Assembly: GCA_021325435.1 (NCBI GenBank)
Contig: JAJPHE010000111.1
Span: 1 to 62,311 of the forward strand
Direction of reading: 5' to 3'
Source of the DNA: Actinomycetota bacterium
GTDB lineage: Bacteria > Actinomycetota > Acidimicrobiia > Acidimicrobiales > JAJPHE01
Length of the DNA stretch: 62,311 nt
A model generated the notes under the pieces. That model did no database searches, was not told the origin of the DNA, and worked only from the letters and a program-made list of their open reading frames with translations. Position 1 is the stretch's first letter. Each line of letters starts with the position of its first letter. A program made the position numbers and the translations under genes. Below are positions 23,459-29,074 of the stretch, one piece after another.

Positions 23459-24781
23459 TCAGACCGGGTCGGAGACCAGCTCGGAGCGGGCGGCGCCGAC
23501 GACGTAGAGCGAGCCGGTGATGAGCACCAGCTCCTCGGCCCGGGCCTCCTCGAGGGCCAGCTTCACCGCATCTGACACCACGGGCGCCTCCACCGCCGCC
23601 ACCCCCAGTCGGCCGGCGGCCGCGACCAGCTCTGAGGGGGCCAGGCCCCGCGGCGACGGCGGCCGGGTGGCGACGACCAGGCGGGCCCGCTCGGCGCCCA
23701 GGGCCTCCAGCATCTCGACCGGGTCGCGGCCCTGGAGCACGCCGACCACCAGCACCAGCCCCTCGACCCCGGCGAACTCCTCGGCCAGGGTGGCGGCCGC
23801 CGCCCGGGCCCCGGCCGGATTGTGGGCCCCGTCGAGCACGCACAGCGGCTGGCGGCCCACGACCTCCATCCGCCCGGGGGTGCGCACCGCGCCGAAGGCC
23901 TCCTCCACCAGGTCCGACGGAAGCGGGCGGCCGAAGAAGGCCTCGGCCGCGGCCAGGGCACAGGCCGCGTTCTGCCCCTGGTGGGCCCCGTGGACCGGCA
24001 GGTACACGTCGCGGTACACGGCCCCCGGGGTGCGCAGGGTGACCAGGCGCCCACCGTGGGCCAGCCGGTTGTCCTCGCAGGCGAAGTCCGCCCCCCTCCG
24101 CCAGACGGCCCCGGCCCCCGCCGCCTGGGCGGCCCGGTCGAAGATCGGGGCCAGGTCGGGGTCGTCCTCCCCGAGGACGAGGACGGAGCCCCCCTTGACG
24201 ATGCCGGCCTTGTCGGCCGCGATCTCGGCCCGGGTGGGGCCGAGGATCTCCTGGTGGTCGAGCTCCACGTTGGTCACCACCGCCACCACCGGGCGCACCA
24301 CGTTGGTGGCGTCCCAGGTGCCGCCGAGGCCGACCTCGACGACGGCGGCGTCCACGGCCACGTCGGCGAACCACCGGAAGGCGGCCGCCGTCAGCAGGTC
24401 GAACCGGTGCGGCACCGCCTGGACCAGGTTCTCGAGGTCGGCGAGGGAACCCAGGACGGCGGCGAGGTCCTCGTCGGATATGGGCTGCAGGTTCCAGGCC
24501 AGGCGCTCGTTGATCGTCTGGAGGTCCGGGCTGGTGTAGGTGCCGACCGAGAGGTTGCGGGCCATGAGCAGGGTGCTGGCCATGCGGGCGGTCGAGCCCT
24601 TGCCGTTGGTGCCGGTGATGTGGATGACCGGGTAGGCGTCCTGGGGGTCGCCCATCAGGCCGGTCAGCTCGCGGATCCGCTCGAGGGTCGGGGCCTCGCG
24701 CCGCGACAGGGTGGTGGCCTCCAGGTTGACGTGGCCCTCCAGCCAGGTGAGCGCCTCGGCCAGGCTCCAGGTCTCGCTCAC
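23459..24781 (-). CDS. folC: Folylpolyglutamate synthase / dihydrofolate synthase
   Basis: 440 residues with the Mur-ligase-type P-loop [14 protein letters not shown], the [18 protein letters not shown] segment, [21 protein letters not shown] and [15 protein letters not shown], all typical of FolC. It adds glutamates to folate and may also make dihydrofolate. GTG 24781 overlaps the TGA of the upstream synthetase-like gene (GTGA). In most actinobacteria the gene directly before folC is valS. Confidence 0.95.
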
Positions 24782-26262
24782 GAAGCCTCCCCGAGCACCA
24801 CGCCGGCCGCCTCGGCCGTCCACGGGTCGCGGCGGAGGCGCCCGGCTAGCTCGGACGCGGCCTCGGCGTCGAGGAGGTGGTCCTCGGAGCCCTCGGCGCC
24901 GGCCGGCAGCACCGCCACCGCCAGGGAGCCCCCCGCCAGGCGGTGGAGCACGGCGATGACCTCGGGCTCCGGAACCGACGCCGGCACGACCAGCGTGCCG
25001 CCTCGGTCGCGCAGCACCTCGGCCGCCCAGCTGGCCGCCACGAACCACGGATCCAGGGCGCTGCCGTCGGGGCGCAGCTCGCCCATGCACGCCCCGCACG
25101 AGCCGGGCCCCGACACGGCGACGGTCGGCTTGCGGCAGTCGAGGCACCACCCGACCGGCACGGGGGAACCGGCCCGCAGCTGCAGGCTGACGCACCAGTC
25201 GCCGGTGGCGGCCAAAGCCCGGCCGACCGCCGGACCGGCCACCGCCGGGCTGACCGCCACGTCCCCGGCGGCCACGGCGGCGGCGGCCGCCTCGGCCAGG
25301 GAGGCGGAGGCGAGGAACCAGTAGGAGCCGAGCCGGTCGACCACGGCCGTGCCGCAGACCCGGCACCGGCGCGAGGGCGAGCGGTCCGGGCGGGTGCCGA
25401 CCAGGGCCCCGGCCGAGGCCAGGGCCTCAAGGGCCTGCTGGCGGGCGGCGTAGCGGGCCAGGCCCTCCCAGGGACCCGAGGTGAGAGTGCCGTCCGCGGT
25501 CATGACCACCGGGGCCGCCAGCCCCCGGGCGGCTGCCACCGACCAGTGGTCGCGCCGATGGGCCGGCACCAGGAGGAACGGCCCCGCCGCGCCGGGGTCC
25601 GGCACCACCGGCACCGTGCGTCCGACGATGGGCAAGGTGGCCTCGTCCCCCGCCGCCGGGTGGCCCTCCGGCACCACCAGGGCAGCAACCCCGTCGAGCA
25701 GCTCCGCCCCGAACAGCTCGGCGTCCACGTCGCCGCCCTCCTCCCCGGAGACCAGCGGGACGGCGAGCACGGCGACCTCCTCGCCGGACGCCGGCTCGCC
25801 CGCCTCGACCTCGGCGTCGGCCACCACCGTCTGGCAGCGGGGGCAGCTGGTGACCACCCGGTCGGCGAAGGAGATCAGGCCGGCCTCGTAGAGGGAGACG
25901 AAGGCGGTGGCGCCGGCGGTGGCGGGGTCGGGGCCGGTGCCTTCCTCCGGGCACAGGCCGGCGGCGGCGAGGACGCCGGCCACCCGCTCGAGCTGCTCCT
26001 GCTCGACCTCGGCGGAGCGGGAGGCGAAGACCTCGGGGCCGGCGCTCACCGGGTCCAGCCCCTCGCGGGCCAGGCTCTGCTCGACCAGCCACTGCATCCA
26101 GACATCCGCCCTGACCAGGGGCAGGACCCAGTCGGCGGGCCCGTCCCGCCGGCGGCCCAGCTCGGCGGCGACGTCCACCGCCACCAGCTCGGCCAGCTCG
26201 GCGGGGGTCGGTCCGGTGCCCACGCGCAGCGGGGCAGGGATGAAGCGGCGGGCACCGTCCAC
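24778..26262 (-). CDS. Degenerate valyl-tRNA-synthetase-like protein, catalytic motifs missing
   Basis: 494 residues that follow the ValRS layout but without its catalytic parts. Residues 18-26 (PTPAELAEL) sit where the HIGH motif belongs. Residues 52-70 (VWMQWLVEQSLAREGLD) match the GIATQ..VE..L..EG segment, and 140-153 read CPRCQTVVADAEVE, almost the ValRS sequence. Residues 233-248 (PAHRRDHWSVAAARG) correspond to the editing-site PAHDPNDF, with its acidic residues changed. DWCVSLQL (355-362), paired CxxC motifs at 372-376 and 389-392, and LDPWFVAASW (403-412) follow in ValRS order. The protein then ends: no KMSKS and no anticodon-binding domain, against about 870 residues normally. The frame is open and coupled to folC by a GTGA overlap, so it is probably expressed. 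It cannot make Val-tRNA by the known mechanism; any role is unknown. Confidence 0.85.
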   Translation of the reverse strand: MDGARRFIPAPLRVGTGPTPAELAELVAVDVAAELGRRRDGPADWVLPLVRADVWMQWLVEQSLAREGLDPVSAGPEVFASRSAEVEQEQLERVAGVLAAAGLCPEEGTGPDPATAGATAFVSLYEAGLISFADRVVTSCPRCQTVVADAEVEAGEPASGEEVAVLAVPLVSGEEGGDVDAELFGAELLDGVAALVVPEGHPAAGDEATLPIVGRTVPVVPDPGAAGPFLLVPAHRRDHWSVAAARGLAAPVVMTADGTLTSGPWEGLARYAARQQALEALASAGALVGTRPDRSPSRRCRVCGTAVVDRLGSYWFLASASLAEAAAAAVAAGDVAVSPAVAGPAVGRALAATGDWCVSLQLRAGSPVPVGWCLDCRKPTVAVSGPGSCGACMGELRPDGSALDPWFVAASWAAEVLRDRGGTLVVPASVPEPEVIAVLHRLAGGSLAVAVLPAGAEGSEDHLLDAEAASELAGRLRRDPWTAEAAGVVLGEAS

Positions 26263-26326: not shown

Positions 26327-27052
26327 TCAGCCGGCGGAGAGCGAGGCGGCCTGCTTGGCCGTCAGAGCGGCCTGGTCGGCCAACCGCTGGGCCAGGGGCC
26401 GGGCCCCGTTGGCGACCTCCCCGAGGCGGGGGCCCACGCCGTCGGCCGTGTCACGCAGCCGCTGGTAGACCTCGTCGCCGAGGTGCTCGAGGCGGGGCCG
26501 GGCCGCCTCAGCCAACTGGGCGGCGCCCACCCGGGCCTGGCCGGCGAGCTGCTCGACCTTGGGACGGGCCTGGCCCGCCAGCTGCTCCACCCGGGGGCGG
26601 GCCTGCTCGGCCAGGTGGCCGGCGCCCACCCGGGCCTGCTCGGCCAGCTGCTCCACCCGGGGGCGGGCCTGCTCGGCGAGATGGCCGGCGCCCACCCGGG
26701 CCTGCTCGGCCAGCTGCTCCACCCGGGGGCGGGCCTGCTCGGCCAGGTGCTCGATGCGGGGCCGGGCGGCCTCGGCCGCCGAGGCGATGGCGTCGCGGGC
26801 GACGGGTGCGAGCACCCGGGCGGCCTCGGCGATCTCCCCGCCGGCGACCAGGGCGGCCGCGGCCAGCTTGCGCCGGCCCCGCTGGTCGAGAACGGCGCCG
26901 ACCAGGGCGCCGAGAGCCCCGCCGACCGCGCCGGACACGACCGCCTTGCGGGCGACGGTGCCCTCCTCGCCGTTGTCTCGCATGGCGGAGACGGCGCCGG
27001 CCCCCGCCCCGGCCGCCCCGCCCACTGCCACACCCAGCCAGATCTTGTTCAT
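26327..27052 (-). CDS. Membrane-anchored protein with 11-residue amphipathic repeats
   Basis: 241 residues, not assigned to a family with confidence. Residues 1-60 are Gly/Ala-rich and hydrophobic with two GxxxG-like stretches (VAVGGAAGAGAGAV and GAVGGALGALVGAVL), possibly membrane-inserting hairpins. Residues 70-205 are a helical array of 11-residue units such as LAEQARPRVEQ and LAEQARVGAGH, resembling apolipoprotein- or LEA-type lipid-surface helices. Three units are nearly identical in DNA (66-base period). It lies 99 bases after clpX on the same strand. A membrane-binding or envelope role is only a guess. Confidence 0.6.
   Translation of the reverse strand: MNKIWLGVAVGGAAGAGAGAVSAMRDNGEEGTVARKAVVSGAVGGALGALVGAVLDQRGRRKLAAAALVAGGEIAEAARVLAPVARDAIASAAEAARPRIEHLAEQARPRVEQLAEQARVGAGHLAEQARPRVEQLAEQARVGAGHLAEQARPRVEQLAGQARPKVEQLAGQARVGAAQLAEAARPRLEHLGDEVYQRLRDTADGVGPRLGEVANGARPLAQRLADQAALTAKQAASLSAG
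26581..26746. repeat. 66-base tandem repeat inside the 11-residue-repeat gene
   Basis: Two full copies (26581-26646 and 26647-26712) and a partial third (to about 26746) differ at only a few bases. Each encodes 22 residues, two 11-residue units. The near identity in DNA, not only in protein, points to recent duplication or conversion, and copy number could vary without changing the frame. Confidence 0.85.
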
Positions 27053-27151: not shown

Positions 27152-28426
<1,275 letters not shown>

Positions 28427-28442
28427 CCCTGGTCTCCCGCCC

Positions 28443-29074
<632 letters not shown>

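Follow-up and report, generated by a model that had tools for sequence, protein, structure and literature searches.

The window, that is, the whole 62,311-nucleotide stretch of Acidimicrobiales DNA that was analysed, carries beside folC a gene for a short relative of valyl-tRNA synthetase (ValRS) that appears to have lost the means of charging tRNA. Gene order, phylogeny and genome comparison show that this predicted pseudoenzyme (pseudo-valS, or the short form) is the vertically inherited valS of its class, demoted in place after replacement by a different synthetase, alt_ValS. The demoted resident enzyme probably survives as a non-catalytic binding protein built on a predicted zinc scaffold. 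The features of the locus, all on the minus strand, are the following.

24778..26262, minus strand: putative short ValRS-like pseudoenzyme of 494 aa (GTG start assumed), from the open reading frame, matches to ValRS models and relatives
26197..26208, minus strand: TPAE at the HIGH position, residues 19-22, from alignment with ValRS of the class
25834..25845, minus strand: CPRC, first half of zinc site 1 (Thermus thermophilus C176/C179), invariant in 15/15 short forms
25690..25704, minus strand: ELLDG, replacing the editing motif around T219 (T219 to L in 15/15), from alignment
25555..25566, minus strand: PAHR, where editing-site D276 has become R and D279 is also gone, from alignment
25354..25365, minus strand: CRVC, second half of zinc site 1 (C344/C347), invariant in 15/15
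25135..25146, minus strand: CLDC, first half of zinc site 2 (C417/C420), invariant in 15/15
25087..25098, minus strand: CGAC, second half of zinc site 2 (C438/C441), invariant in 15/15
24778..24781, minus strand: GTGA, a 4-nt overlap of the pseudo-valS stop with the folC start, read directly in the sequence
23459..24781, minus strand: folC, immediately downstream of pseudo-valS
26327..27052, minus strand: 241-aa Ala/Glu/Arg repeat protein, between clpX and pseudo-valS
27152..28477, minus strand: clpX, which marks the upstream side of the ancestral clpX-valS-folC arrangement

The original prediction that the protein follows ValRS was borne out at the level of the family. A profile built from ten relatives matched T. 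thermophilus ValRS (1GAX) over residues 41-556 with an E value of 8e-82, and the window protein by itself matched NCBIfam valS (E 2.6e-27) and Pfam tRNA-synt_1 (E 5.5e-11), scoring 95 bits against TIGR00422, below the curated cut-off of 612 bits. The Pfam scan of the family returned tRNA-synt_1 only, plus a weak zinc-ribbon match in two members, and detected no anticodon-binding domain in the short forms. An AlphaFold2 model, computed from the window protein and a Streptomyces ValRS (L039), reached a pLDDT of only 38, and the fold and zinc sites are thus taken from the 1GAX alignment. Compared with ordinary bacterial ValRS (TIGR00422/NF004349, the clpX-valS-folC type), the short forms share the locus, the clade, both zinc sites and a core alignable from T. 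thermophilus residue 41 onward, but they lack HIGH, KMSKS, D81, most editing residues and the anticodon-binding domain, and measure about 440-600 aa versus 865-900.

The intact frame and its coupling to folC had been advanced as arguments against simple decay. The GTGA overlap stands, whereas the open frame carries little weight at this GC content, since the antisense strand over the same DNA is itself open for 725 codons and, in so GC-rich a window, an intact frame alone is no evidence of coding. The case that pseudo-valS is coding rests instead on its codon-position GC (0.82/0.58/0.96, like that of the neighbouring genes) and on its conservation across families. An Rfam scan near the locus found no RNA leader. 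The 241-aa protein upstream is a helical repeat of EQARPRVEQLA units, rich in Ala, Glu and Arg; similar repeat proteins lie at the same place in several genomes with and without pseudo-valS, and so it is not tied to this gene.

The residues that were lost were established by comparing 15 short forms with 25 ValRS of the class, using T. thermophilus numbering counted from the 1GAX alignment; the roles assigned to the numbered residues are those generally known for the T. thermophilus structure. At HIGH, G52 is gone from all 15 short forms and both histidines are retained in only three, with an HLAH vestige in slow members such as G016. KMSKS is missing from 15/15; in the longer short forms the sequence flanking it on both sides can still be aligned, and the loop therefore looks to have been excised. 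The window copy also lacks most of the remaining C-terminus, a stretch that many relatives retain. In the valine pocket, D81 is kept in none of the 15 and W456 has become R in 13 (the window copy still has W), while N44 is replaced by Arg in 8/15. Among the editing residues, R216, T219, F264 and K270 are found in 0/15, D279 in 4/15 and D276 in 12/15, the latter being Arg in the window copy. The losses of HIGH, KMSKS, the anticodon-binding domain and the editing-site residues had all been anticipated and were confirmed. On these grounds of sequence, aminoacylation by the short form is excluded and editing is strongly disfavoured.

What has been kept is equally consistent. The zinc cysteines C176, C179, C344, C347, C417, C420, C438 and C441 are each present in 15/15 short forms at an overall identity of 35-45%, and P42, E218, W400 and D454 are likewise retained in 15/15. 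Two zinc CxxC pairs had been described at the outset; such pairs are indeed present, but the count was too low, as four of them make up both ValRS zinc sites. The short forms are accordingly predicted to hold two four-cysteine sites that bind zinc. Of 314 columns at least 95% conserved in ValRS of the class, the short forms cover 263; the majority residue is the same in 120 of these, and 38 retain it in at least 90% of short forms. Additionally, the short forms have 37 columns where a residue other than the ValRS majority is conserved at 85% or more, and several families share the new motifs ELLPGxVAxxVPxGHPA, GxHWFL and LDARF.

The locus itself is the normal one for valS, as had been supposed: clpX and folC flank ordinary valS in genomes of the class and the phylum, clpP-clpX-folC is retained in the order, and the short form lies between clpX and folC in those relatives whose contig spans both genes. 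Among the 43 resolved genomes lacking the short form, clpX is within about 300 nt of folC in 34, and the wider clpX-folC gaps, where examined, contained no detectable valS remnant and no half-decayed copy. In a separate observation, on the Streptomyces diastatochromogenes contig (L039:4268-5797), a TnpB-like gene, named by eye only, lies directly upstream of valS and overlaps it. In a maximum-likelihood tree obtained by a quick method under a mixture model, the 15 short forms made up one clade (SH-aLRT 100) of long branches, nested inside the ValRS clade of the class (support 99). The short forms also scored 87-335 bits with an ordinary ValRS profile versus at most 43 with an alt_ValS-type profile. 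A FastTree run that included alt_ValS paired it with the short forms; this placement was rejected as long-branch attraction, being contradicted by the profile scores.

The folC-linked short form, whose presence in related genomes had been proposed as a check, was indeed found beyond the window. A protein search of 59 genomes recovered clear relatives in ten, the window's own genome included, at 38-44% identity to the window protein, and a profile search across the order, covering 397 genomes, found the short form in 15, from about ten families. The other profile matches in the order belonged to a longer, more distant ValRS type, and no ordinary full-length ValRS was among the matches from these 397 genomes. 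Outside this order, the class gave ordinary full-length ValRS as its best matches, mostly of 865-900 aa, and the phylum was alike; no short form was detected in 41 genomes of the class outside the order, most of which carry alt_ValS. Three candidates outside the order (G581, G575 and L160), considered as shorter or broken forms, proved to be ordinary ValRS interrupted by gaps in the sequence or by frameshifts. Presence and absence of the short form require seven changes on the clpP-clpX-folC tree; with a single origin at a single locus, repeated loss is the simplest account of this pattern, and so patchy a presence indicates that the gene is dispensable. In fact, G002, one of three genomes of the window's own family, is without it. 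G056 holds two copies, L227 (on C573) and L080 (on C564), that are 90% identical, one of them adjoined downstream by a glycosyltransferase-like gene and not by folC; this assembly has 6% contamination, and the double copy may reflect a duplication or a mixture of strains.

It had been suggested that the true valS was moved or replaced, and a genome search located the replacement. The window's own genome carries a second ValRS on contig C153 (33079-35669; L001, L226), of the NCBIfam type alt_ValS, with a score of 1138 bits (the alt_ValS of G016 reaches 1432). This is the only full ValRS found in that genome and bears HVGS and KMSKS; past the KMSKS region its frame appears to shift by one base, probably through an assembly error. 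The other holders of the short form also carry alt_ValS, of which only a contig-end fragment was found in G069, and it exceeded the cut-off in 154 of 296 genomes of the class, in families inside and outside the order. Like the short forms, alt_ValS (NCBIfam NF000540/PRK13208-like) belongs to the ValRS superfamily, but it is a distinct deep type that, unlike them, has the catalytic motifs and occupies a different locus. It is therefore predicted, from these motifs, to be the working valyl-tRNA synthetase wherever the short form occurs.

Further ValRS variants were encountered. A third type of about 1050-1100 aa occurs in several families of the order (L040-L045, L145-L158); where checked, it does not adjoin folC, and G020 has both this type and alt_ValS. 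G581 (L231), from the class outside the order, has a seemingly ordinary valS beside folC together with alt_ValS, at 4% contamination, and may possibly be an intermediate state of the replacement. An alt_ValS subtype with N-x-x-RR instead of PTERR, and with L or I in place of the KMSKS methionine, is commoner in holders of pseudo-valS; its members are L225/L266 (G003), L221/L265 (G005), L223/L263 (G032), L224/L264 (G056), L262 (G171), L243 (G025), L237 (G039) and L245 (G048).

Selection on the short form was estimated as dN/dS by the NG86 method; values among distant members are saturated (GC3 about 0.95) and were not taken as proof of neutrality. In close pairs of other families the ratio was 0.22 for G016/G069 (folC of the same pair, 0.22), 0.19 for the two G056 copies and 0.37 for G011/G067 (folC, 0.20), which points to purifying selection on the short form after the loss of catalysis. 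In the window's own family the picture differs: between G000 and G001 dN/dS is about 1, with silent sites saturated at a GC3 of 0.95, versus 0.39 for folC and 0.11 for clpX, and pseudo-valS protein identity is 35-39% versus 76% for FolC. The dN/dS check proposed in the original prediction came out in favour of a maintained gene in the close pairs; in the window's own family the saturation keeps the ratio from being a clean test, but the low protein identity does indicate fast change. At columns conserved in the other 13 short forms, G000 nevertheless retains 77% and G001 73%, and both have the same residue at 68% of these sites versus 22% of the variable ones (Fisher p 4e-11). These data are read as a short form that is constrained in most lineages and weakly so in the window's own family, where its role seems to be fading.

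This contrast bears directly on the view that the gene is a dying relic, an old valS decaying since the takeover by alt_ValS and persisting until deletion. Its patchy presence with several independent losses, the fast evolution of the window's own family together with the loss in G002, and the truncated C-terminus of the window copy are what such a relic would display. However, against it stand the dN/dS values of other families, whose close pairs have about 0.2 just as folC does, the eight cysteines invariant at 35-45% identity, the newly conserved columns and the lack of half-decayed copies among genomes without the short form, and we regard this view as unlikely. The suggestion that the frame serves chiefly to feed translation into folC, with the protein itself of little importance, draws on the GTGA overlap in the window and the close spacing in relatives. 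Coupling does not require conservation at the level of residues, though, and the short clpX-folC distances in 34 of the 43 genomes without the gene indicate that folC manages alone, which makes a feeder very unlikely.

Editing in trans, as a free-standing domain clearing mischarged tRNA(Val), was among the roles first raised, and the retained CP1 region, with D276 in 12/15 and E218 in 15/15, is what recalls it; yet F264, K270 and R216 are lost in 15/15, T219 has become L in 15/15, D279 is lost in 11/15 and the window copy lacks D276 too, so that this role is scarcely credible. A different proposal starts from the other pocket: because W456 has become Arg in 13/15 and N44 in 8/15, and new motifs are common across families, the valine/adenylate pocket may have been refitted for a new ligand, which would make the short form a ligand-binding regulator derived from a displaced ValRS; we hold this to be rather doubtful. 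Quite improbable as well, and itself one form of the preferred explanation, is an accessory or regulator specific to alt_ValS, for example one aiding an atypical active site. The methionine of KMSKS is replaced in alt_ValS of 7/14 holders versus 4/39 non-holders (Fisher p 0.004), but the association is post hoc, only four well-supported independent pairs remain given the phylogeny, and half of the holders, including the window's genome, have a normal KMSKS motif.

The reading that we favour is a demoted ValRS acting as a zinc-scaffold binding protein. The comparisons establish its first part: the resident valS still stands between clpX and folC, and alt_ValS, elsewhere in the genome, bears the catalytic motifs. 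The short form has lost its KMSKS loop and anticodon-binding domain and has a rewritten HIGH region, valine pocket and editing pocket, with the core around CP1 and its two four-cysteine zinc sites retained. The surviving protein would act by binding, not catalysis, its zinc-braced core offering a rigid surface or a remodelled pocket that holds a partner; candidates are the acceptor end of a tRNA, alt_ValS itself or a small ligand. It would be dispensable to the cell, an accessory or a regulator whose translation is coupled to that of FolC.

Several paralogues of aminoacyl-tRNA synthetases, among them HisZ and GenX/PoxA, are without aminoacylation and retain the synthetase fold, and such non-charging paralogues mostly arose as duplicates. 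The short form resembles HisZ and GenX/PoxA in keeping the fold after ordinary tRNA charging was lost, but these derive from other synthetases, whereas the short form is a resident ValRS demoted in place. AlaX and YbaK/ProX are free-standing, shortened editing proteins derived from synthetases that keep the editing active site; the short form is likewise synthetase-derived and shortened but, unlike them, has not retained that site. A search confined to open-licence papers, which is weak evidence, returned nothing relevant on a ValRS pseudoenzyme or on alt_ValS in the class.

Most known proteins derived from synthetases seem to go back to spare duplicates; in this case the enzyme that was replaced was an essential, resident one, and its catalytically dead core has persisted in its own gene cluster long enough to be found in about ten families. 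In automatic annotation these genes may be labelled valS or class I tRNA ligase and so mislead gene counts. The class holds the ordinary enzyme, alt_ValS alone, and alt_ValS with the dead form, and with all three states in one class the passage from essential enzyme to pseudoenzyme to loss is open to comparative study.
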